Part shown: one piece after another, positions 10,166-23,600 of the stretch
How positions within the stretch are numbered: position 1 is the stretch's first letter
How the letters are laid out: each line of letters opens with the position of its first letter
NCBI RefSeq assembly: GCF_900113615.1
Contig: NZ_FOPZ01000001.1
Coordinates: forward strand, 1 to 64,000
Source of the DNA: Halorubrum aquaticum
Lineage (GTDB): Archaea > Halobacteriota > Halobacteria > Halobacteriales > Haloferacaceae
Length of the DNA: 64,000 nucleotides
Direction: 5' to 3'
Translations under genes and position numbers: made by a program
The notes under the pieces: model-generated
Databases searched by the model: none
What the model saw: the letters and a program-made list of their open reading frames with translations, nothing else
What the model was told of the DNA's origin: nothing

Positions 10166-11656
10166 TCACCGCACGTGGAACTCGCCGAGTTCGCGGAGCC
10201 GCCCGGCGAGGTCGTCGCTCAGCGCGTCGCGCTCGACGCGCCACTCCCAGTTGCCGTCGACGGTTCCGGGCTCGTTGAAGCGCGCGTCGCTGCCGAGCCC
10301 GAGCAGGTCCTGGACGGTCGTCATCGCGAGGATCGCCTCCGAACTCCACACCTCCTCGACGATCGCCCACTCGATCGGCCGGTCGCCGCCGTAGCCGAGG
10401 TTGTAGTGGAGCGCGTCGCGCTGCGCGGGCGCGAGGTCCTCGTAGTAGCCGACCCAGGTGTCGGTGTCGTGCGTGGAGGTGTAGCCGACGACGGACTCGG
10501 GATAGTGCATCGGCTGGTACGGGTTGCCCCCTTCGGTCCAGTTCGCGTACTGCGGCACCCGCATCCCGGGGAAGCCGAACTCGGCCATCAGGTCGTCCAT
10601 CCGCGCGTCCTCGAACCCGAGGTCCTCCGCGATGAAGGGAGCCTCGCCGAACTCGCGCTCGACCGCCTCGAAGAGCGCCCGCCCCGGCCCGTCGTTCCAC
10701 TCGCCCGCGGCCGGGTCGTCGGCGTCGGCGGGGATGGCCCAGTACCGAACGAACCCGAGGAAGTGGTCGAGCCGGGCGACGTCCGCCAGATCGAACAGCC
10801 GGCGGAACCGGTCCATCCACCAGCCGTAGTCGTTCTCGGCGAGCCGCTCCCAGTCGTACACCGGGTTCCCCCAGCGCTGCCCGTCGTCGCCGGCGTTCGG
10901 CGGCACACCCGCGACCGCGGCCGGACGGTTCCCCTCGTCGAGCCGGAAGGCCTCGGGGTTCGCCCACACGTCCGCGGAGTCGAGCGCCACGTAGATCGGC
11001 ACGTCGCCGACGATCTCGACGCCCGCCTCGGCGGCGCGGTCGCGGAGCGCCGCCCACTGCCGGTCGAACGTCCACTGGAGGAACTCGTGGTACCGGATCT
11101 CCTCGGCGTGTTCCTCCCGCGCCGCCGCGAGCGCGTCCGGGTCCCGCGTGCGGAGCGGTTCGGGCCACTCGACCCAGGTGTCCTCCGGTCTGGCGGCCGA
11201 GAGCGCCCGGAACAGCGCGTACTCCTCGACCCACGGCTCGCGCTCGCGGAAGGCGTCGAACGTCCCCCCCGCTCCCGTCTCCTCCGCCGCCTCGAACCGA
11301 TCGAACGCGGTTCGCAATAGCGGGAGCTTGTACTCCCGGACCGCCTCGTAATCGACCCGATCGGTCGGGAACTCGGGAACCGGCTCCAGGTCGTCCGCCT
11401 CGAGCCAACCGTCGTCGACGAGTCCTCGGAGGTCGATCAGGAGCGGGTTGCCGGCGAACGCGGAGGGCGACTGGTACGGCGACTCCCCGGCGGCCCCGAT
11501 GGTCGGTCCGAGCGGGCACACCTGCCAGTAGTCGACGCCGGCCTCCCCGAGAAACGAGAGGAAGGCCGCCGCGCCGTCGCCGAGGTCGCCGATCCCGTGT
11601 GGCCCCGGCAGCGACGTGACGTGACAGAACACTCCGTCGGAGCGGTCGAATCGCAT
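10166..11656 (-). CDS. malQ: 4-alpha-glucanotransferase (amylomaltase, GH77)
   Basis: A 496-residue cytosolic enzyme that transfers alpha-1,4-glucan segments between maltodextrins, releasing glucose. GH77 motifs are clear: SLPGPHGIGDLG near the start, then the catalytic triad D297 (ARLDHFLGF), E344 (FIAEDLGF) and D397 (STHDTDTW), spaced almost as in Thermus amylomaltase (293/340/395). The length is typical. The start MRFDRSDGVFCH was preferred over an ATG seven codons upstream. It is the downstream partner of the GH13 amylase on the same strand (69 bases between them). Confidence 0.95.
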   Translation of the reverse strand: MRFDRSDGVFCHVTSLPGPHGIGDLGDGAAAFLSFLGEAGVDYWQVCPLGPTIGAAGESPYQSPSAFAGNPLLIDLRGLVDDGWLEADDLEPVPEFPTDRVDYEAVREYKLPLLRTAFDRFEAAEETGAGGTFDAFREREPWVEEYALFRALSAARPEDTWVEWPEPLRTRDPDALAAAREEHAEEIRYHEFLQWTFDRQWAALRDRAAEAGVEIVGDVPIYVALDSADVWANPEAFRLDEGNRPAAVAGVPPNAGDDGQRWGNPVYDWERLAENDYGWWMDRFRRLFDLADVARLDHFLGFVRYWAIPADADDPAAGEWNDGPGRALFEAVEREFGEAPFIAEDLGFEDARMDDLMAEFGFPGMRVPQYANWTEGGNPYQPMHYPESVVGYTSTHDTDTWVGYYEDLAPAQRDALHYNLGYGGDRPIEWAIVEEVWSSEAILAMTTVQDLLGLGSDARFNEPGTVDGNWEWRVERDALSDDLAGRLRELGEFHVR

Positions 11657-11725: not shown

Positions 11726-13783
11726 TCACGGCTCCGTCGACACGATCGCCACGTCGTCGACGCGGATCCGTTCTTCCCCCTCGGCGTCGGACACGACGCA
11801 GGGGTCCCCCGTGACGACGTTCAACCGCCCGTGGTCGGCGTCGACCGCGACGAGCGCCTCGCCCGGCGCGAAGTTGAGGACGACCACGAGCGCCTCGGAC
11901 CCGTGCTCGCGGCGGAACGCCACCACGTCGTCGGGATGGACCTCGTCGCCGTCGGCGGCGATCGGCCGCTCCCCGGAACCGCCGCCGGCGACGCGGTAGT
12001 CCACCCGCTCGAGGTCGCCCGCGGGCCCGAGCGCCGAGTGGGCGTCGTGGGCGGCCGACAGCCGCGCGTAGCGCTCGCGGACCTCCTCGCGGGCGTGGTC
12101 CCAGGCTATCGGGTCGCGTCGGCCGCGCTGGCCGATCTCCTGGCCCGCGTACACCATCGGCACGCCCGGCAGGGTGAACGTCGCCGCGGCGGCGGCCGCC
12201 GCCGCGGCGTCGCCGCATTCCACGCGATACCGGGTCTCGTCGTGGTTCTCGACGTACTGGAGGAACCCGGCGTGGTCGGGGAAGCCGACCGCGGCGCGCT
12301 TCTCGACCGCGTCGATCACGGACTCCGCCGGCGCGGCCCCGCGGCCGATCTGCCGGAGTTGGAAGTACAGCGTCGCGTCGAAGTGGACGTCGAACATCCC
12401 CTCGTGGAACCGGGGGACGTACGGGATCGTCTCGTCCAGCAACAGGAAGTCCGGGTCGGCCGCCTTCGCTCGGTCCCTGATCTCCCGCCAGAACGAGTCG
12501 GGGACCGCCCACGCCATGTCACAGCGGAAGCCGTCGACGAGCGGGGCCCACTCGTCGACCACGTCGAGGAGGTACCGTCGGACCGTCAGGTTCGCGTGGT
12601 TCAGGTTCGCGATCAGCTCCCAGTCGAAGTAGGTGCCGGGTTCGCCGGAGTCCTGCCACTCGTAGCGGTCGCGGTACGGCGAGTCGGGGTTCCGGTAGGC
12701 GTCGCGGAACCACTCGTGGTCGCGGGCGGTGTGGTTCAACACCAGGTCGAAGAGCACCCGCATCCCGTTGTCGTGGGCGGTCTCGACCAGACGCTCGTAG
12801 TCGTCGCGGTCGCCGAGGTCGTCGGCGATCGCGAAGAAGTCCGTGATGTTGTAGCCGTGCGGCTTCCCGTCGTTCTCGAGCACGGGCGTGAGCCACAGCG
12901 TGTCCACGCCCGACTCGGCGAGTTCGGGGAGCCGCCCCTCGATCGCGGCGAGCGTCTCGCCCTCCTCCGCGTCGGCGAAGGTCCGGACGTACACCTCGTA
13001 GACGGTCGCGTCCGCGGTCCACGCCGGCGGCTGGTTCGGCCGCGTCGTCTCGAAGGCCTCGCCCGCCGTGGGGTCGCCGAACGAGTCGGGTCCCCCGGCG
13101 TCGACCCGATCGATCGAGACGGCGTCGGCGACGCTGACCCGGGCGTCCTCCCCGGGATCGCGGGCGACGGCGACGGCGTGGACGCGGAGCCGGTCCGGAA
13201 CGGACCCGGTCGGCAGCCGGATGGTCGCCCCCGTCGGGTTCTCGGTCACGGTCAACGCGTCTCGCGGGTTCGTCCGTCCGTCCGCGACCGCCGCGGCGAC
13301 GTCGCGGTCGTCGATCACGAACCGCACGGCGAGGTCGTCGGCCGCGAGCGACGAGTCGGGGTTCGGCGTCGCGACCGCGCGCACGACCGCCTCCGTCCCC
13401 TCGATCTCGGCGTCGAGCCGGATCCGTGGGGGGCCGCCCTCACCCGCGAGCCGGCCGGCCCCGTAGTCGATCCCCGCGCGGTCGACGTCGCGATCGCGGA
13501 TCGCCTCGCCGCTGCCGCCGGCGACGTCCACCCCCTCGTAGGCCGCCGGAAACGCCAGCACGGTCAGGAGGTGGTCCCCGTCGGGGGCCGCGAGTCCGAT
13601 CCGGTACTGTCCCGGCACGTCGGGCGTGAACTCGGTCACGGGCTCGGAACCGACCGTCGAGTCGCTCGTCGGCGGGGCGTCCGCGATCCGCCACTCGTAG
13701 CTCCCGGTCGGCTCCGGGTCCCGCGGCGCGAGCTGTACCGTCTCGCCGGTGGAGACGAACCGTGGGGGTCCGGGATGGTGCAT
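11726..13783 (-). CDS. GH13 alpha-amylase family glycosidase with N-terminal beta domain
   Basis: A 685-residue protein. Residues ~1-250 are beta-rich (a PKD/Ig-like segment, then a second sandwich) and probably aid substrate binding. The GH13 barrel follows (VYEVYVRTFAD, LPELAESGVDTLWLTPV, LVLNHTARDHEWF) with nucleophile D422 (GFRCDMAW), acid E451 (LLLDETIP) and transition-state stabiliser D515 (VENHDETR). No signal peptide is seen at MHHPGPPRFVS, so it probably acts inside the cell. It is divergent from the double GH15 gene, forming an alpha-glucan degradation group with malQ. Confidence 0.9.
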   Translation of the reverse strand: MHHPGPPRFVSTGETVQLAPRDPEPTGSYEWRIADAPPTSDSTVGSEPVTEFTPDVPGQYRIGLAAPDGDHLLTVLAFPAAYEGVDVAGGSGEAIRDRDVDRAGIDYGAGRLAGEGGPPRIRLDAEIEGTEAVVRAVATPNPDSSLAADDLAVRFVIDDRDVAAAVADGRTNPRDALTVTENPTGATIRLPTGSVPDRLRVHAVAVARDPGEDARVSVADAVSIDRVDAGGPDSFGDPTAGEAFETTRPNQPPAWTADATVYEVYVRTFADAEEGETLAAIEGRLPELAESGVDTLWLTPVLENDGKPHGYNITDFFAIADDLGDRDDYERLVETAHDNGMRVLFDLVLNHTARDHEWFRDAYRNPDSPYRDRYEWQDSGEPGTYFDWELIANLNHANLTVRRYLLDVVDEWAPLVDGFRCDMAWAVPDSFWREIRDRAKAADPDFLLLDETIPYVPRFHEGMFDVHFDATLYFQLRQIGRGAAPAESVIDAVEKRAAVGFPDHAGFLQYVENHDETRYRVECGDAAAAAAAAATFTLPGVPMVYAGQEIGQRGRRDPIAWDHAREEVRERYARLSAAHDAHSALGPAGDLERVDYRVAGGGSGERPIAADGDEVHPDDVVAFRREHGSEALVVVLNFAPGEALVAVDADHGRLNVVTGDPCVVSDAEGEERIRVDDVAIVSTEP

Positions 13784-13930: not shown

Positions 13931-16900
13931 ATGCGACTGCGAACCGCGATCACGGAACACAAACGTCGCCGCGGGGAACGCTACTCGACGGAGCGGCCGA
14001 CCACCGTCGGGGCGTTCACCGGCGACGGCGGTCGGCTGGTCCACGTCGGGCCGGACGGCGACGCTCACGACTGTTCGTACGCGCTCTCCGGCGTGGGCGG
14101 CACCGACCGGGTCCGGATCGGGATCGCCGGCAGCGGCGGGGTTCGGTGGCTCGCGGACCTCGAGACCACCCGTCAGCACTACGACGGGGACACCCCGCTC
14201 GTCGAGACCGAATACGACGCCGGTCGGTACACGGTCCACCAGTTCGACCTCGTCGTTGGGGACGCCCACCTCACGCACGTCGTCCTCCGCGGGTCGCCGC
14301 CGGCGAACGCCGACCTCGTCGCCAGCTGCGCGTTCGCGCCCGACATGGTCGAAGGACGCGTCGGCAACCTCGTCCACGAGGGGTCCGGTCCCGAGGGCGG
14401 GGACGTGATCGAGGTGTTCCACCGCCGGGAGCACGACTTCCTCACCGCCTCCACCGGCCTCTCGGCGGCACACGGACAACGGCAGGAGACGATCCCCCAA
14501 CTGCTCGGCGAGGACGACGGGCGGACGCCCCATCGCGGCGAGATCGACGAACGCGAGGACACGAGCCTCACGCCCGACGTCGTCGTGCGGGCCCCCTTCG
14601 AGCGCGACGGGCGGACCGAGCGCGTCACCCTCGTCAGCCGACCCGTCCTCGACGAGAACGGGCCGGGATCGGGCGAATCCGGCGACGGAACGCGGCTCGC
14701 GGAGGAGGCCGACCGCGCCGACCGGCTCGAGGCGGTCTCGCGGATCGCGACCGCCCACGCGGACACCGACAGCGTCCGCGAGGCGGCCGAGGCGCGCGCT
14801 CCGGGAGTCCCCGACTCGGTGCCGCGGGCGTCGACGGTGGCGAGCGACCTCCGCGCGCTCGACCTCCTCGAGTCGGCGTCCGGCGGCCGGATCGCCGGTC
14901 CGGAGTTCGACCACTTCTACGCGACCTCCGGCGGGTACGGCTACACCTGGTTCCGCGACGAGGCGGAGGCCTCGAGCGCCCTGCTCGCCGCGAGCGAGGA
15001 GCTCGATCTGGACGCGCGGGAGGACCTCCTCGCGTCGGCCGCGTTCCTCTGTCGCACCCAGGACGCCGACGGGAGCTGGCCCCACCGCGTCTGGGCCGAC
15101 TCCGGCAAGGTCGCGCCGGGGTGGGCGAACGCCCGGATCGAGTCGGGCGACGGGGCGAGCCCCAACGACCAGCTCGACCAGCCGGCGTCGGTCGTCGCGT
15201 TCCTCGCCGAGCTTCGACGGACGACGGACGTGCCCGAGCCCCTCCGCTCCCGGATCGACGAGGCGATCGGCGACGCGGTCGCGTTCCTCCGGGAGACGAC
15301 CCGTGAGGACGGGCTCCCCCGCCGCTGTCAGAACTGCTGGGAGAACGCGATCGGACGGTTCACGCACACGGGCGCGGCGTACCTCGGTGCCTTCGCGTCC
15401 GTCGCGCGCGCGCCGCTCGACGCGGACCTACGGGCCGCCGCCGCGAGCGCCGCCGACGACGCGGCCGCCGGCCTCCAGAGCCGCTGGATCCCCGAACTCG
15501 AGCGGTTCCCGCAGCGCGCCAGCGACGGCGACGGCGACGAGCGCGCGGACGCCAGCACGTTCGCGCTCGCGGACGCGCTCGCCGAGTACGTCGCGCTCGC
15601 CGAGGAACGCCCGAACGTCGCCGGCGGCGACGCGACCGAGGCGGATCCGTCGCTCGACCCGATCCCCGACGCGGTCGACCTCGACGCGTTCGTCTCGCAG
15701 GTGTCGACGCACGTCCGGACGTCGATCGACTCGCTGGGCCGGGAGACCGAACACGTCGAGGGGCTGGTCCGGTTCGTCGGCGACGACTGGCGGACGGCCG
15801 AACAGGGCGGCGCGAAGGTGTGGTCGATCGCGACGCTGTGGGGCGCGGTCGCCGCCGGGACCGTCGGCGGGATCCTCGAGTCACGGGGCGACGAGCCGGA
15901 GCCGCTCTTCTCCGCGGCCCGGCGGCTGTACTCGCTTTGTGAGTCCGACGGCCCCTTCGCGAACGGCTCCGGGCTGCTCGCTGAGCAGGTCTTCGACGAC
16001 GGCGACCTCGACAGCGCGACTCCGATCGCGTGGGCGCACGCGCTCCGACTGGACGCGACCGCGACGCTCGCGCGACACGGGACGCTTCCGGTGCCGCACG
16101 ACCGGCCGAGCGGGCCGGAGGCCCCGCGGTGGACGACCGGACGGAAGTTCGGCGTCGGCACGCCCGCGGACCACGCCGAGGACGACCCGGTCCCGGTCTG
16201 GTTCACGCTGACCGAGGGGGCGTTGACGGAGGCGCGGTTCCCCCGGATCGACGTGATGAACCTCCGGACGTTCGACTTCCTGATCGCCGACCCGGAGACG
16301 GGCCACACGGTCCGGACCTTCGACGAGACGGGCCACGTGACGACGACGGAGACGATCACGCGGTCCACGGAGCCGAGCGCCGAGGACGCGCTCGCGTACA
16401 GACAGACGATCCGCGAGTCGGGCGACGGACACGGACACAGCTGGACGCTCTCGGTCGAATACGCGGTCGACACCGCGGGCGACGCGATCCTCGCGGACGT
16501 CGAGTTCGAGGGCGCCCGCGCCTACGACGTGTACGCGCTCGCGGACACCACGCTCGCGAACGTCGGGACCGACGACCGCGGGAGCCGCGTCGGCGACGGC
16601 CCGTTCCACCTGCTCGCCCACAGCGACCGCGGGAACCGCCCGCCGGGCAAGCTGGTCGACGACGACGGCGATCCCTTCGACGTCGCGGCCGCGCTCACGG
16701 CCGGCGGCGGGTTCGACTGGGCCAGCGCCCTCGCGGCCGGCGACGACGCGCTGGAGTCGCTGTTCGGGAGCGGCGACCGCGGGGAGGCAAGCGAGACGGC
16801 GAGCGGGAACGTCGTGCTCGCCGGGCTCCTCGGCAGCGGAACGACCGTCTCCGACACGGTCGCGCTCGGGTTCGCGGAGCAGGGGGACACCGCGGCGGCG

Positions 16901-18694
16901 CTCGGCGAGGCGGAGGGCGCGCTCTCGCGCGGCTTCGAGGCGGTCGAGTCGGCGTACGTCGACACGTGGCGCGACTGGCTCGACGGTCGGGAGTACCCGG
17001 ACGCCGTGAGTTCCGACCCCGACCTCGAGGCACAGTACCTGTTCGCGCTGATGACGCTCGCCGCCGTCGAGGACAAGCGTCACGACGGGGCGGGGATCGC
17101 CAGCCCCTCGGTCCCGTGGGGCGAGACGGAGTTCGCCGAGGAGGACCGCGGGTACGGCTACAACTTCGTCTGGTCGCGCGACCTCTATCAGGTGTTCACC
17201 GCGCTGATCGAGGTCGGCGAGGTGGAGCGCGGCGCGGACGCGCTCGCGTACCTCTACAACACCCAACAGGACGACTCCGGCTTCCTCCCGCAGAACACCT
17301 ACATCGACGGCCGGACTCGCTGGGGCGGCGAGCAGATGGACAACATCGCGTTCCCCTCGGTGATGGCGTGGCAGCTGTACGAACACGGGGTGACGCTCTC
17401 GGACGCCGAGTACGACTACGACCAGGTGCGCCGGTCGGTCGGCTACGTGGCGACGAACGGCCCCCAGACCGCCCAGGAGCGCTGGGAGGAGGAGGCGGGC
17501 TACTCGCCCTCGAGCATCGCCGCCGAGATCGCGGGGCTGACGTGTGCGGCCGCGCTCGCGCTCGCGGAGGCCGACCGGCTCGAGGCCGACGGCGGCGACG
17601 CGTCCGGTGCGGTCGACGCGCCGGACTCGGAAGACGACGCGCCGGACCCGGAAGACGACGCGCCGGACCCGGAAGACGACGCGCCGGACCCGGAGTCCCT
17701 CCGCGCCGACGCGCTCGCGTGGCTCGCGCTCGCCGACGACTGGGCCGACCGCGTCGAGGAGTGGTGTGCGACCGACGCCGGCACGGACCGCCACGACGAG
17801 ACGCCCTACTACATCCGGATAACCGCCGACGGCGACCCGAACGCCGGCCGACCGCGGACGATCGCCAACGACGGACCGACCTACGACGAGCGCGAGATCG
17901 TCGACGGCGGCTTCCTCGAGCTCGTCCGGCTCGGCGTGAAGCCCGCCGACGACCCGGTCGTCCGCAACTCGGTCGCCGTCGTCGACGACTCCATCCGGGT
18001 CGACACCCCGCACGGCCCCGCCTGGTACCGCTACATCGGCGACGCCTACGGCGAGCTCGGCTACGGCGACCCCGGCGGCCCGTGGGCGGGCACCGGCGAC
18101 GGGAAGGGACGCCTCTGGCCCATCTTCACCGGCGAGCGCGGCGAGTACGAGCTCCGAGCCCGTGCCGACGGCTCGGACGCCTTCGGCGGCACCGACGAGG
18201 ACGCGTTGGAGCCGGCCTCGCTGCTCGAGACGATGGCCGGGTTCGGCAACGAGGGCCGGATGCTCCCCGAGCAGGTGTGGGACCGCGAGCACCCGACCGA
18301 CTACGGCTGGGAGTTCGGCGAGGGGACCGGGGGGGCGACGCCGCTGGCCTGGTCGATGGCGGGGTTCATCCGGCTGGCACACGGCGTCGACGCCGGCGAG
18401 CCCGTCGAGACGCCGACGGTCGTCCGCGACCGCTTCGTCGAGCGCGACCTGCCCGCGGGCCCGGAGCTGACGGCGACCGCCGAATTCGAGGACGACGGAG
18501 TCGTCGTCTCCGGCGAGACGACCGGCGAGCGGGTCGCAGTCTTCACCGCCGACGGCTCGGCGATCGCGACGCCGACCGACGGCGAGTTCGAGGTCCGCCT
18601 CGCGGACGACGACGCCCGGACCGTCGTGGTCGCCGCCGCCAGCGACGGCGACTTCGAGGCCGCGGGCACGGCCGTCGAGCGGATACGGTTGTAG
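13931..18694 (+). CDS. Double-module GH15 glucoamylase-like protein (1587 aa)
   Basis: A giant predicted glucan 1,4-alpha-glucosidase built from two GH15 units. Unit 1 (~1-710) has a beta-rich N-terminal region, then an (alpha/alpha)6 domain with GGYGYTWFRDE, candidate acid E471 (NCWENAIG) and base E685 (LLAEQVFD). Unit 2 (~735-1500) repeats this: a glucodextranase-N-like beta domain (RKFGVGTPADHAEDDP), GYNFVWSRDLYQVF, acid candidate E1186 (RWEEEAGYSPS) and base E1447 (LPEQVWD). A ~90-residue beta domain ends the protein. Acid/base assignment is by analogy with Aspergillus E179/E400. There is no signal peptide. Unit 2 contains a DDAPDPE tandem repeat. Confidence 0.88.
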   Translation: MRLRTAITEHKRRRGERYSTERPTTVGAFTGDGGRLVHVGPDGDAHDCSYALSGVGGTDRVRIGIAGSGGVRWLADLETTRQHYDGDTPLVETEYDAGRYTVHQFDLVVGDAHLTHVVLRGSPPANADLVASCAFAPDMVEGRVGNLVHEGSGPEGGDVIEVFHRREHDFLTASTGLSAAHGQRQETIPQLLGEDDGRTPHRGEIDEREDTSLTPDVVVRAPFERDGRTERVTLVSRPVLDENGPGSGESGDGTRLAEEADRADRLEAVSRIATAHADTDSVREAAEARAPGVPDSVPRASTVASDLRALDLLESASGGRIAGPEFDHFYATSGGYGYTWFRDEAEASSALLAASEELDLDAREDLLASAAFLCRTQDADGSWPHRVWADSGKVAPGWANARIESGDGASPNDQLDQPASVVAFLAELRRTTDVPEPLRSRIDEAIGDAVAFLRETTREDGLPRRCQNCWENAIGRFTHTGAAYLGAFASVARAPLDADLRAAAASAADDAAAGLQSRWIPELERFPQRASDGDGDERADASTFALADALAEYVALAEERPNVAGGDATEADPSLDPIPDAVDLDAFVSQVSTHVRTSIDSLGRETEHVEGLVRFVGDDWRTAEQGGAKVWSIATLWGAVAAGTVGGILESRGDEPEPLFSAARRLYSLCESDGPFANGSGLLAEQVFDDGDLDSATPIAWAHALRLDATATLARHGTLPVPHDRPSGPEAPRWTTGRKFGVGTPADHAEDDPVPVWFTLTEGALTEARFPRIDVMNLRTFDFLIADPETGHTVRTFDETGHVTTTETITRSTEPSAEDALAYRQTIRESGDGHGHSWTLSVEYAVDTAGDAILADVEFEGARAYDVYALADTTLANVGTDDRGSRVGDGPFHLLAHSDRGNRPPGKLVDDDGDPFDVAAALTAGGGFDWASALAAGDDALESLFGSGDRGEASETASGNVVLAGLLGSGTTVSDTVALGFAEQGDTAAALGEAEGALSRGFEAVESAYVDTWRDWLDGREYPDAVSSDPDLEAQYLFALMTLAAVEDKRHDGAGIASPSVPWGETEFAEEDRGYGYNFVWSRDLYQVFTALIEVGEVERGADALAYLYNTQQDDSGFLPQNTYIDGRTRWGGEQMDNIAFPSVMAWQLYEHGVTLSDAEYDYDQVRRSVGYVATNGPQTAQERWEEEAGYSPSSIAAEIAGLTCAAALALAEADRLEADGGDASGAVDAPDSEDDAPDPEDDAPDPEDDAPDPESLRADALAWLALADDWADRVEEWCATDAGTDRHDETPYYIRITADGDPNAGRPRTIANDGPTYDEREIVDGGFLELVRLGVKPADDPVVRNSVAVVDDSIRVDTPHGPAWYRYIGDAYGELGYGDPGGPWAGTGDGKGRLWPIFTGERGEYELRARADGSDAFGGTDEDALEPASLLETMAGFGNEGRMLPEQVWDREHPTDYGWEFGEGTGGATPLAWSMAGFIRLAHGVDAGEPVETPTVVRDRFVERDLPAGPELTATAEFEDDGVVVSGETTGERVAVFTADGSAIATPTDGEFEVRLADDDARTVVVAAASDGDFEAAGTAVERIRL
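17612..17695 (+). repeat. Four 21-bp in-frame repeats inside the glucoamylase gene
   Basis: Four consecutive 21-bp units, the first diverged, encode a heptad of the type DDAPDPE. They fall in a proline/aspartate-rich insertion (from residue ~1228) between the candidate acid and base of GH15 unit 2, so the insert must loop out of the barrel. The last three units are nearly identical, a sign of recent slippage expansion. Confidence 0.85.
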
Positions 18695-18698
18695 GCGG

Positions 18699-19148
18699 CT
18701 AGCCGAGCGCGACCACGTCGACCTCGTGGGTCCGTTCGCCCACCGTGTCGCCGTCGGCGATGGCGATCTCCACCGTCCCACCGACCGCCTCGCGGACGGC
18801 CTCCCGCCACTCGGCGACCGCCTCGGCGTGTCGCTCGCGGCGGGTCTCCACGTCGGCGTCGGGGAACTCTGCCGCGGTCTCGTCGACCTCTGGATACGGG
18901 GGAACCGTCTCGAGGAACGCGGCCGCATCGACGTGGATCGCTCCGTCGGATCCGTCCATCGAGGCGTCGTCGACCCGGTGGATCCGCGCGCGCATCCGAC
19001 CGGAGTACGGCGGCGTCACCCGCAGGACGACCCGCTTTTCGGTCCGCAGCGTCGCCTCGAGGGCGTTCGCCACGTCCTCGCGATGGACCGCGATCGACCG
19101 GATCCGGGTCGGGTCGGTTCCCTCTCCGGAACGGTCGGGATCAGTCAT
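18699..19148 (-). CDS. Conserved haloarchaeal protein co-encoded with MutS-like ATPase
   Basis: A 149-residue acidic protein with an N-terminal alpha/beta region (IAVHREDVANALEATLRTEKRVVLRVTPPYSGRMR), a helix rich in Glu/Arg/Ala (ETRRERHAEAVAEWREAVREA) and a final strand HEVDVVALG. I do not recognise a characterised family. Its start overlaps the end of the upstream MutS-like gene by eight bases, so the two are translationally coupled and probably work together. It converges on the GH15 gene. Confidence 0.75.
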   Translation of the reverse strand: MTDPDRSGEGTDPTRIRSIAVHREDVANALEATLRTEKRVVLRVTPPYSGRMRARIHRVDDASMDGSDGAIHVDAAAFLETVPPYPEVDETAAEFPDADVETRRERHAEAVAEWREAVREAVGGTVEIAIADGDTVGERTHEVDVVALG

Positions 19149-20937
19149 CCGCCGATCGGTCGTCCTCCGGCGTCCAGCGCGCGTCCGAGAGGGTCCGCTG
19201 GACGGCCTCCTCGCCGACCGCGGCCGCGAGGTGTTCGAACCCGCCGCGGACCGACCGGTCGGTCGCGTTCGCGACGAGCCGCGAGACGATGAACTCCGGG
19301 GTCGACTTCCCGACCGTGCCGAACCGCGGCTGGTAGTCCACGCGCAACTCGAGGTCGTTCGTGAGTCCCTCCGCGAAGATCCCGTCGATCCGGGCCGTCT
19401 CGGGCAGCGGGCTGAGGTCCTCCGCCAGGTGGGTGACGTAGACGCCGAGCGCGCCGCGGTCGACGGTGAGGTCGACGAGGCCGTTGAGGAGGTCCGCGGC
19501 CCGCCCCGGCTCCGTGATCGCCTCGAACTCGTCGACGAGCATCAGGGTCCGCCCCTCCTCGACGAGCGGCGGGACGACGGAGCGCAGCGTCGACTCCAAC
19601 ACCCCGGCGTTGAACGAGGCGTGCCGGCGGTGGAAGACGATCCGGTCGAACGACCCGACCTCCGCCTCCTCGGCCGGCACCGGGAGCCCCATCGACGCCA
19701 GCAGCGTCACCGCACACAGCGTCTCCAGAAGCGTCGTCTTCCCGCCGGAGTTCGCCCCGGTGAGGACGCTCACCCGGTCGCCCGTCGGCGGCGACTCGGC
19801 GTTCGAGACGCCCGCGTCGCCGGCGAGCGAGTGGGTCCCGACCGCGTACGACACCGGCTGGACGGGGTCGTCGACGAAGGGGCTCCGGGCGTTCCGGACC
19901 GCGAGGCCGTCCTCGACGAGTCGCGGACGGACGAGGTCGTACTCTGCGGCGAACCGGCCGAGCGAGAGGTCGACCGCGACGTCGGAGACGACCTCCACGG
20001 CCCGGTCGACGTCGCCGCCGGCGTCGCCGATACGGTCGCGGAGGTCGGCCGCGACGGTCGCCTCCCGGTCGTCGACCGCGGCCGAAAGCTCGTCGACGAG
20101 CCCCCGGAGGGTGGCCGAGACGAAGTCGGCCGCGTCGAGCGCGTCGTCGGGGGCCGCCGCCCGGACCGTCGCCGGGTCGACGCCCGTCTCCGTCGCGACG
20201 TGGTCGACGGTCGCGGCCTCCAGCGCCTCGAAGTCGCGAAGGGAGCCGTCCCGAACCGTCTCGAGCACGTCGAACGCCGAGTCCGCGAGTTCCTCGGCCG
20301 CCGCGAGCCGCTCGCGGAGCCGGTCGAGCTCGTCGTCCGCGCCGGGTGCCACCTCGACGTCGTCGTCGCCGAGGGAGCCGCGCACGTTCCCGAGCGCGTC
20401 CGCGGCCTCCCGGAGCGCGTCGTCGTCGAGGCCGGAGAGCGCATCGAAGGTTCCGCCGGTCAGCCCGACCTCCCGGAGCGCGATCGCGGTCTCGACGGCC
20501 GCCCGGTCGGTGCCGCCGGCCTCGTCGTAGGCGGTGAACGCGCCGACCACGCGCTCGCGGGCGTCGTCGTCGAGACTGCGCCAGGCGTCGCGGGCGGCCA
20601 CGACCTCCTCGAGCCGAGCCTCGATCGCGTCCCGGTCGAGCGAGGGCGTGAGGACGCGGATCCGGTCGGCGGCGTGTTCGGTGAGCGCGTACCCCGCCGC
20701 GAGCGTCAGGAGGTCGTCGTACACCTCGCGCGTGTCGCCGGTCGCGAGGACGCCCATCCCGGCCTCCCCGTTCGCCCGGCGGAGGATCCGCGTCGCGCGC
20801 CCGCGGTGGAGCCCGGCGTCGACGAGCGCCCGAACGTCGGCCGACTCGATCGCCTCGACGGCCCGCTCGACCCCGAGCTCGGCGGTCAGCAGCTCGCTCG
20901 TCTTCGGGCCGATCCCCCAGTAGTCCTCGAGTCGCAT
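19141..20937 (-). CDS. MutS-family DNA-binding ATPase with N-terminal HhH region
   Basis: A 598-residue MutS-related protein. It opens with a helix-hairpin-helix-like segment (YWGIGPKTSELLTAELG), has a long alpha-helical core (~200-350) for the lever/clamp region, and a C-terminal ABC-type ATPase: Walker A TGANSGGKTTLLE with K400, Walker B TLMLVDEF, and a conserved H in YVTHLAEDL. It lacks the mismatch-recognition domain I of MutS1, so it resembles the haloarchaeal MutS5-like group whose role is unsettled. It is coupled to the downstream 149-residue protein. Confidence 0.85.
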   Translation of the reverse strand: MRLEDYWGIGPKTSELLTAELGVERAVEAIESADVRALVDAGLHRGRATRILRRANGEAGMGVLATGDTREVYDDLLTLAAGYALTEHAADRIRVLTPSLDRDAIEARLEEVVAARDAWRSLDDDARERVVGAFTAYDEAGGTDRAAVETAIALREVGLTGGTFDALSGLDDDALREAADALGNVRGSLGDDDVEVAPGADDELDRLRERLAAAEELADSAFDVLETVRDGSLRDFEALEAATVDHVATETGVDPATVRAAAPDDALDAADFVSATLRGLVDELSAAVDDREATVAADLRDRIGDAGGDVDRAVEVVSDVAVDLSLGRFAAEYDLVRPRLVEDGLAVRNARSPFVDDPVQPVSYAVGTHSLAGDAGVSNAESPPTGDRVSVLTGANSGGKTTLLETLCAVTLLASMGLPVPAEEAEVGSFDRIVFHRRHASFNAGVLESTLRSVVPPLVEEGRTLMLVDEFEAITEPGRAADLLNGLVDLTVDRGALGVYVTHLAEDLSPLPETARIDGIFAEGLTNDLELRVDYQPRFGTVGKSTPEFIVSRLVANATDRSVRGGFEHLAAAVGEEAVQRTLSDARWTPEDDRSADD

Positions 20938-21115: not shown

Positions 21116-22861
21116 ATGGGATTCGAACCGCTATCTCGACTCCGAGCCAGTTACGGCGTGAAGCTCGCGTCGTCGCTGGTCGGGGTGATGGGTGTCTCGG
21201 TCGCGTACGGGGTCGTCGTTTACGCTCGTACGGGGGATCTCGGTCCCGCGGGGGAGGAGGTCAGGTCCGGGCTGGTCGGCATGACGTTACTCGCCGTGAT
21301 AGGGATCGCGCTGATCGGGGTGACCGTGGGGTCGAACACGGTCGTCTCGCTGCGACAGCTCACCCGGAAGGCCGAGCGGATGGCCGACGGCGACCTCGAC
21401 GTCGCTCTCGACACGGGACGGAGCGACGAGATCGGTCGCCTCTTTTCGGCCTTCGACGAGATGCGCGGATCGCTCAAACGCGAGATCCGCGAGGCCGAGG
21501 AGGCGCGGGCGGACGCGGAGGCCGCTCGGCGCGAGGCCGACGAGCGGGCGGCGACGATCGAGCGCAAGGCGACCGCCTACGAGGAGGCGATGCGGGCGCT
21601 CGCCGACGGCGACCTCACCCGCCGGGTCGACCCCGACTGCGAGAGCGACCCGATCCGACGCGTCGGCACCGCGTTCAACGAGATGGCGGCGGAACTCGAG
21701 GGGACGGTCGCGTCGGTCGCGTCGGTCGCGGAGGACACCGCGACCGTCGCCGGGACCGTCGACGACCGGACCGAGAACCTGCGGTCGACGACCGGGACCG
21801 TCTCCGGCGCCGTCTCCGAGATCGCCGACGGGGCACGAACCCAGCGCGACGACCTCCGGGCGACGACCGACGAGGCCGAGTCGCTCGCCTCCTCGGCGGA
21901 GGAGGTGGCGGCGACGGTCACGGAAGTGGCCGAGACGGCCGAACACGCCGCGGCGGTCGGCGAGGAGGGACAGGAGGCGGCGGAGGCCGCCCTCGCGGAG
22001 ATGGACGCGGTCGAGGAGGTCACCTCGGAGACGACGGAGGACATCGAGGCGCTGGCCGAGGAGATCGAGGAGATCGGCGAGGTCGTCGACACGATCGCCG
22101 AGATCGCGGAACAGACCAACATGCTCGCGCTCAACGCCTCGATCGAGGCGGCGCGTTCGGACGCCGACGGCGCGGGCTTCGCGGTCGTCGCCGAGGAGGT
22201 CAAGAGCCTCGCCGAGCGGACCCAGGAGTCCGCCGCCGAGATCGAAGACCGGATCCACGCGGTTCAGGCGCGCGCGGAGGCGGGCGTCGACTCGATAGCG
22301 GAGACCGAAGACCGGATCGAGACCGGCGTCGAGACGGTCGAGACCTCGATCGACGCGCTCGAGCGCCTCGCGGAGGCCTCGGAGCGGACCGACGACAGTA
22401 TGACCGAGATCACCCGCGCGACGGAGTCGCAGGCGGACACGGTCGACACCGTCGTCGGCCACGTCGAGGACGTCGCCGCCATCAGCGCACAGACCGCGAG
22501 CGCGGCCGGCGACGTCACCGGCGCGGTCGACGAACAGGAACGGACCCTCGCCGCCGTCGAGAACGCCGCCGAGGCGCTCTCGAGCCGCGCAGGGCGGCTC
22601 CGAAGCACCGTCGGGAGCTTCGAGTACGACGTCGACGAGGCGGAGGAGATCGAGGGGGCGGAACTCGACCTCGACGGGGATCACGACGCGTCGACGGCGA
22701 CGCCGCCCCCCGACGATCCGGCCTCGCGAGGAACGACGGCCCCCGAGGGAGTGGCGACCTCCGACGGCGGTCGGGACCTTGACCCCGGCGATGGCTCGGA
22801 CCCTCGCGACGATGGATCCGCCTTCGACTTCGCCGACGACGGTCCGGAGGGGGTGAACTGA
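21116..22861 (+). CDS. htrII: Sensory rhodopsin II transducer (HtrII)
   Basis: A 581-residue transducer with two membrane helices (~17-36 and 51-72) joined by only ~14 residues, so there is no extracellular sensor domain, as in Natronomonas HtrII. Two HAMP domains follow (RMADGDLDVAL near 90; ALADGDLTRRV near 165). The cytoplasmic signalling hairpin is at ~325-375 (IAEIAEQTNMLALNASIEAA, FAVVAEEVKSLAERT). The C-terminus is a disordered acidic tail. It is predicted to pass the light signal from the adjacent rhodopsin to CheA/CheW for photophobic swimming. Genes are one base apart in the order htrII-sopII. Confidence 0.92.
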   Translation: MGFEPLSRLRASYGVKLASSLVGVMGVSVAYGVVVYARTGDLGPAGEEVRSGLVGMTLLAVIGIALIGVTVGSNTVVSLRQLTRKAERMADGDLDVALDTGRSDEIGRLFSAFDEMRGSLKREIREAEEARADAEAARREADERAATIERKATAYEEAMRALADGDLTRRVDPDCESDPIRRVGTAFNEMAAELEGTVASVASVAEDTATVAGTVDDRTENLRSTTGTVSGAVSEIADGARTQRDDLRATTDEAESLASSAEEVAATVTEVAETAEHAAAVGEEGQEAAEAALAEMDAVEEVTSETTEDIEALAEEIEEIGEVVDTIAEIAEQTNMLALNASIEAARSDADGAGFAVVAEEVKSLAERTQESAAEIEDRIHAVQARAEAGVDSIAETEDRIETGVETVETSIDALERLAEASERTDDSMTEITRATESQADTVDTVVGHVEDVAAISAQTASAAGDVTGAVDEQERTLAAVENAAEALSSRAGRLRSTVGSFEYDVDEAEEIEGAELDLDGDHDASTATPPPDDPASRGTTAPEGVATSDGGRDLDPGDGSDPRDDGSAFDFADDGPEGVN

Positions 22862-22862
22862 G

Positions 22863-23600
22863 ATGTTCGCGAACGTGACCGTCTGGGCGTGGATCGGCGC
22901 CATCGGGATGCTCGCCGGGACGGCTCCCTCGCTGTGGCTGTGGTACCGGCGGCCCTCGGAGGCGAGGTACTACGCGACGCTCGCCGGGGTCACGGGGATC
23001 GCCGCGGTCGCGTACACCGCGATGGGACTCGGCGTCGGCAACGTCGCCACGCCCGGCGGGACGCTACCGGCCGCGCGGTACGCGGACTGGCTGCTCACGA
23101 CGCCGCTTCTGATCGCGTATCTCGCGCTGCTCGTCAGGACCGACCGGCGAACCATCGCGACGCTGATCGCCGTCGACGTGGTCGTCATCGCGGGCGGCGT
23201 CGTCGCCGTCGCGACCACCGGAACCGTCTCGTGGGCGGCGTTCGCCGTCGCCTCGGTCGCGTACCTCGGGCTCGTGTACGGGCTGCTCGTGAAGCTTCCG
23301 CGATCGGCCGCGGCGCGGGCGGACCGGGTGCGCGCCGTCTTCTACACGCTCCGGAACATCACCGTCGTCCTCTGGACGCTGTACCCCGTCGTCTGGCTGC
23401 TCGCGCCGACCGGGTTCGGCCTGCTCACGCCCGCGACGGAGATGCTGGTGTTCGTCTATCTCGATTTCGTCTCGAAGGTCGGGTTCGCGATCGTCGCCGT
23501 CGCGGGGGCGGACGCGGTCGCGTACGTCGAGGGCGACGCGGCCCGCGAGATCGACGCCGAGACCGAGCGGTCTCGGACGGGCGGGGAAACGGCGGACTGA
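22863..23600 (+). CDS. sopII: Sensory rhodopsin II (phoborhodopsin)
   Basis: A 245-residue seven-helix retinal protein. By direct count it keeps the Natronomonas SRII numbering: R72-Y-A-D75-W (primary acceptor D75), Y174 in TLYPVVW, D201 and retinal lysine K205 in YLDFVSKVGF. The neighbouring transducer gene and the VYLDF-SKVGF helix G support SRII rather than a pump. It differs from Natronomonas SRII, as I recall that sequence, at T204 (Ser here) and D193 (Glu here). A short acidic C-terminal tail is present. It should trigger avoidance of blue-green light. Confidence 0.92.
   Translation: MFANVTVWAWIGAIGMLAGTAPSLWLWYRRPSEARYYATLAGVTGIAAVAYTAMGLGVGNVATPGGTLPAARYADWLLTTPLLIAYLALLVRTDRRTIATLIAVDVVVIAGGVVAVATTGTVSWAAFAVASVAYLGLVYGLLVKLPRSAAARADRVRAVFYTLRNITVVLWTLYPVVWLLAPTGFGLLTPATEMLVFVYLDFVSKVGFAIVAVAGADAVAYVEGDAAREIDAETERSRTGGETAD

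Follow-up and report, generated by a model that had tools for sequence, protein, structure and literature searches.

The gene analysed here lies on the forward strand of the window, the whole 64,000-nucleotide stretch of Halorubrum aquaticum DNA under study, and encodes one polypeptide made of two GH15 units. Translation of the frame from the ATG at 13931 to the stop codon ending at 18694 revealed no internal stop. According to the list of open reading frames, the same frame is open upstream as far as 11597. A start at that position was dropped, since M1 at 13931 is kept in 32/32 aligned relatives, and this invariance makes 13931 the likely start. A sigma-70 promoter scan of the 5' region, which does not cover archaeal promoters, gave no match.

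The divergent GH13 neighbour and the GH77 gene beyond it (Table 1) form surroundings that fit maltodextrin or glycogen turnover. The neighbourhood was compared across 78 related haloarchaeal loci, recovered by a scan with one genome per species. Of these, 74 have a GH13 homologue close to the double gene and 48 a GH77 homologue, some loci being cut by contig ends. On the other side of the double gene, a 598-aa frame on the minus strand (19141-20937) matches MutS_V (PF00488); its homologues occur near the double gene at 33 of the 78 loci, with titles that are nearly all Halorubrum. Positions 21116-23600 hold a gene for a methyl-accepting chemotaxis transducer, followed directly by a gene of the bacteriorhodopsin family (PF01036), an arrangement that resembles a pair of transducer and sensory rhodopsin. 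In the fetched flanks of the 78 loci the transducer was seen four times and the rhodopsin once.

Table 1. Features of the two-unit GH15 gene and of its GH13 and GH77 neighbours (positions in the window).
Feature	Position	Strand	Basis or property
GH77 4-alpha-glucanotransferase, MalQ type, beyond the GH13 gene	10166..11656	-	domain search
GH13 alpha-amylase-type enzyme, divergent neighbour, 685 aa from ATG	11726..13783	-	domain search
Whole gene, two-unit GH15 protein	13931..18694	+	1,587 aa, ~169 kDa, pI 4.3
Unit 1, residues 1-727	13931..16111	+	domain search, AlphaFold model, PDB matches
W398 codon, aligned with TtGA Trp390 (alpha-1,4 glucoamylase determinant)	15122..15124	+	alignment
E471 codon, general acid of unit 1, CWEN motif	15341..15343	+	alignments
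E685 codon, general base of unit 1, AEQ motif	15983..15985	+	alignments
Unit 2, residues 728-1587, bacterial glucoamylase/glucodextranase type	16112..18691	+	domains, model
Glucodextran_N beta domain of unit 2, residues 730-1017	16118..16981	+	PF09137
(alpha/alpha)6 GH15 catalytic domain of unit 2, residues ~1030-1483	17018..18379	+	domains, model
W1131 codon, aligned with TtGA Trp390	17321..17323	+	alignment
E1186 codon, general acid of unit 2, ERWEEE motif	17486..17488	+	alignments
Tandem repeat of 21 bp in 3.9 copies, encodes the acidic DAPDPED run of unit 2	17614..17694	+	low-confidence model loop
W1385 codon, aligned with glucodextranase (AgGD) Trp582	18083..18085	+	alignment
E1447 codon, general base of unit 2, PEQVWD motif	18269..18271	+	alignments
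C-terminal beta domain, residues ~1505-1587	18443..18691	+	1UG9 alignment (glucodextranase domain B), model

The initial annotation had proposed two complete GH15 units on a single polypeptide, and this was borne out by the intact frame, by the match of both halves to PF00723 (GH15) and by the fold predicted for each. Unit 1 is composed of an N-terminal beta domain (residues ~21-245) followed by an (alpha/alpha)6 catalytic domain (~296-716). Taken alone, it scored 39.3 bits against PF00723 (cut-off 22) and remained below the equivalog cut-off of TIGR01577, the archaeal 'oligosaccharide amylase' (110.6 vs 820.7 bits), in an alignment covering the catalytic half of the unit. Its AlphaFold model, computed from a 32-sequence alignment, reached a mean pLDDT of 83.5 and a pTM of 0.87, and the five top PDB matches of this model were all chains of GH15 enzymes (1UG9, E 1.3e-17; 1LF6; 9JU0). 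Unit 2 alone gave 121.1 bits with PF00723 (cut-off 22) and 163 bits with PF09137, and it was placed below the cut-off of the glucan 1,4-alpha-glucosidase equivalog TIGR01535 (521.3 vs 741.9 bits). The corresponding model, again from a 32-sequence alignment, had a mean pLDDT of 75.8 and a pTM of 0.81 and matched 1UG9 (E 1e-48, 34% identity) and 1LF6 best, with 9JU0, also a GH15 enzyme, among the matches. The concern that one half might lack the GH15 fold is thus answered, the models of both halves matching GH15 structures best.

In unit 2 the likeness to 1UG9, whose domains are named N, A, B and C, extends over query residues 726-1582, from the N domain through domain B. Pfam did not call Glucodextran_B on the C-terminal beta domain (~1505-1587), nor did it find Glucodextran_C (PF09985) in the double protein, the chain of which stops after the B-like domain. 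The pLDDT of the unit 2 model drops under 50 in the active-site loops 396-409, 456-460, 643-666 and 718-741 (unit numbering), so that the placement of the specificity tryptophans described below is alignment-based. The loop containing the DAPDPED repeat varies in length and sequence among other Halorubrum loci.

To look at the catalytic residues, a 78-row GH15 alignment was used, in which the two units stand beside single-unit homologues, outgroups from archaeal GH15 and the two bacterial enzymes of solved structure. Every one of the 78 rows has Glu at the positions of E471/E1186 and of E685/E1447, and the four residues are also invariant across the 32 aligned relatives, in agreement with the earlier proposal that each unit has its own acid/base pair. 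The roles of general acid and general base are those described for this Glu pair in the GH15 literature (PMC12446779). Likewise, the Arg-Asp pairs of subsite -1, R342-D343 and R1083-D1084, are invariant in the 78-row alignment. Judged from these residues, both GH15 units are apparently catalytically active.

With respect to linkage specificity, alpha-1,4-specific glucoamylases have been reported to have a common Trp (TtGA Trp390), and the alpha-1,6-specific enzymes AgGD and KfIG to carry Trp582 and Trp350, respectively, on the opposite side (PMC12446779, a paper on dextran dextrinase). This rule is a correlation drawn from other enzymes. In our alignment, the equivalents of TtGA Trp390, W398 and W1131, are invariant in every unit row, single or double. 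W1385, which is equivalent to AgGD Trp582, is Trp in unit 2 of 20/20 aligned double proteins and in 4/5 single unit-2 proteins, and its column is a gap in unit 1. The initial annotation had suggested that the units could differ in chain-length or linkage preference; different linkage preferences are plausible on this sequence basis, since an aligned counterpart of the glucodextranase Trp is seen in unit 2 only.

A more radical division of labour, in which glucoamylase activity belongs to one unit and the other acts as a trehalase, as an isomaltose/dextran glucohydrolase or as a transglucosidase, appears improbable to us. GH15 does include trehalases, an isomaltose glucohydrolase and a retaining dextran dextrinase (PMC12446779), and the glucodextranase-type Trp of unit 2 is in line with such a division. 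However, the alpha-1,4-type Trp, missing from the glucodextranase 1UG9, is found in both units, and the archaeal proteins L121-L124, judged trehalase-like from their N termini, are located elsewhere in the tree. It is still less probable that a single unit performs catalysis and that the other, with its catalytic residues kept, acts mainly as a substrate-binding or stabilising module. Such a loss of function might be suspected for unit 1, which evolves faster than unit 2 (~42-50% identity to relatives outside the genus, vs ~55-61% for unit 2) and which matches PF00723 weakly (39 bits), but the acid, the base and the residues of subsite -1 show no variation in either unit or among the single-unit homologues.

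The two units had been described as quite different from each other, and the comparison agrees: BLASTP of unit 1 against unit 2 gave an E value of 0.034, and each unit comes from a GH15 lineage of its own. A tree of the catalytic domains places unit 2 with 1LF6, 1UG9 and the archaeal protein L131 (support 100) and joins unit 1 to the haloarchaeal GH15 proteins that have a single unit (support 99). Phylogeny had been suggested as a means to distinguish duplication from fusion, and once run it favoured fusion: forcing all haloarchaeal units into one clade was 65.6 log-likelihood units worse (AU p 0.00015), which rejects a duplication within haloarchaea, even if the meeting of long branches in this tree tempers the test. 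We therefore consider it very unlikely that the halves are tandem duplicates of one haloarchaeal GH15 gene; their overall fold and domain order are indeed alike, but their BLASTP likeness is at noise level and duplication is rejected by the tree and the AU test under the model used, the long branches leaving a small doubt. As to the number of fusion events, the free unit-1 tree placed the double proteins with two changes (three in the mixed tree), and their grouping in a single clade had an AU p of 0.6, so that one fusion event is allowed.

The intact double protein, as a single frame longer than 1,400 residues, was present at 75 of the 78 loci, the exceptions being the broken frames of L030 and L080, both metagenome-derived, and the short contig L076. 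The absence or frameshift of one half in relatives, envisaged in the initial annotation as an argument against a genuine double protein, is thus not what was found. That the fusion is an artefact of assembly or annotation, as the two broken metagenome-derived frames might suggest, can be practically discarded in view of the unbroken frame at 75 loci from many separate isolates, complete genomes among them. Within the family of the window, a unit-1 match was obtained in 77/99 genomes, and in 72/99 (hand count) it lies inside an open frame of at least ~1,500 residues. Across the class, unit 2 was detected in 42/98 genomes. The statement that most GH15 enzymes have one unit may hold generally, but the family of the window is commonly double. 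The rarity that this statement implied is not supported by the data, the double form being standard in many haloarchaea and already known as HVO_1711. Because the double protein is common in haloarchaea and has this published counterpart, it is a known kind of protein, and the window encodes an unexceptional orthologue of a protein that is widespread among haloarchaea.

Some loci showed particular arrangements. On the metagenome contig L075, the double GH15 gene is followed by a single unit-1 gene on the same strand, and in L156 and L157 a single unit-1 gene lies near the double gene on the opposite strand. The protein of L005, titled Halobellus captivus, is 89% identical to that of the window and the other Halobellus loci ~51-52%, possibly a naming or transfer oddity.

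Each unit also exists as a separate protein. A single unit-1 protein is encoded in the window's own genome (L002, G000:C3:217858-219969), and single unit-2 proteins were found in other haloarchaea (L151-L155). The N termini of the latter are Tat-like by eye (RRQFLQG, DRRTLLK, RRRDFLRG, and for L155 RRRYLAA followed by a lipobox-like Cys). A Pfam scan of L151, L152, L154 and L155 detected Glucodextran_C in the first three and not in L155. At the N terminus of the double protein we found no signal peptide, no Tat-like signal and no strongly hydrophobic stretch nearby. Having neither the Tat-like signal nor Glucodextran_C, the double protein is probably cytosolic, a location judged from the N terminus only. 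In L155 a single unit-1 gene is situated ~1.5 kb from the signal-bearing single unit-2 gene, the units being there separate genes.

The reading that we prefer, with a probability of about three in four, is that the double protein is an intracellular two-headed haloarchaeal glucoamylase, orthologous to HVO_1711 of Haloferax. Each unit would cut beta-glucose from the non-reducing ends of maltodextrin in an inverting, single-displacement reaction, E471 or E1186 serving as the general acid and E685 or E1447 as the general base, on chains that the GH13 and GH77 neighbours would supply and reshuffle. The ancestor of unit 2 may have been a secreted enzyme of the glucodextranase type, which would have lost its signal and its C domain and then been joined behind a cytosolic archaeal GH15. 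With both types of Trp, unit 2 might tolerate or prefer alpha-1,6 links more than unit 1. A bolder version, which we find unlikely, is that an exported glucodextranase-type enzyme, once cytosolic and fused to the C-terminal side of the native archaeal glucoamylase, yielded one chain cutting both alpha-1,4 and alpha-1,6 links, unit 1 acting on alpha-1,4 links and unit 2 also on branch points; if this were true, the cell would need no separate exo-debranching step. Our literature search found no activity measurement for any gene-assigned member.

What stands at this locus is a real and well-conserved two-unit GH15 protein, of modest importance. The standard annotation, a single 'glucoamylase', does not reveal that the protein has two active sites and that these differ in origin. 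In the part of the 2021 annotation review that deals with it, HVO_1711 of Haloferax volcanii is listed as a probable glucoamylase (PMC8305020, Table 9), and the bacterial enzyme cited there, Clostridium glucoamylase P29761, is matched to the C-terminal half of HVO_1711; that published note thus ties the bacterial glucoamylase to this half alone. The same entry gives 51% identity between HVO_1711 and a protein of Halorubrum sodomense, a species from which an amyloglucosidase was purified and characterised, its gene being unassigned there (PMC8305020). The H. sodomense genome was found to have the double gene as well as a paralogue made of unit 1 alone, so that the purified amyloglucosidase could be either and its assignment is ambiguous; it is a testable question. 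Searches of the literature on tandem or double GH15 returned no description of a tandem GH15 protein and no report of the two active sites of the double protein assayed separately.

Among known systems, HVO_1711 is the closest: the Haloferax loci of our set have the same double frame and are ~51-52% identical to the window protein, HVO_1711 itself being compared through the part of its published description cited above. The single-unit haloarchaeal GH15 proteins, such as L002, in most cases span unit 1 almost completely, with ~34-46% identity, but they and the TIGR01577 type have one unit, of ~690-760 aa. L151-L155 cover most of unit 2 with ~45-58% identity and have N, A and B or B-like domains; they differ from the double protein by their Tat-like N terminus and by the lack of unit 1. 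The glucoamylase of Thermoanaerobacterium thermosaccharolyticum (1LF6) shares with the units the beta domain, the (alpha/alpha)6 domain and the acid/base Glu pair, and its Trp390 has equivalents in both of them, whereas it is a bacterial protein of a single unit with Tyr at the position of W1385 of unit 2. Finally, the glucodextranase of Arthrobacter globiformis (1UG9/1ULV) aligns with unit 2 in its N, A and B domains through residue 1582, and its Trp582 corresponds to W1385; in contrast to the double protein, it consists of a single unit, retains the C domain and is devoid of the alpha-1,4-type Trp that unit 2 possesses.
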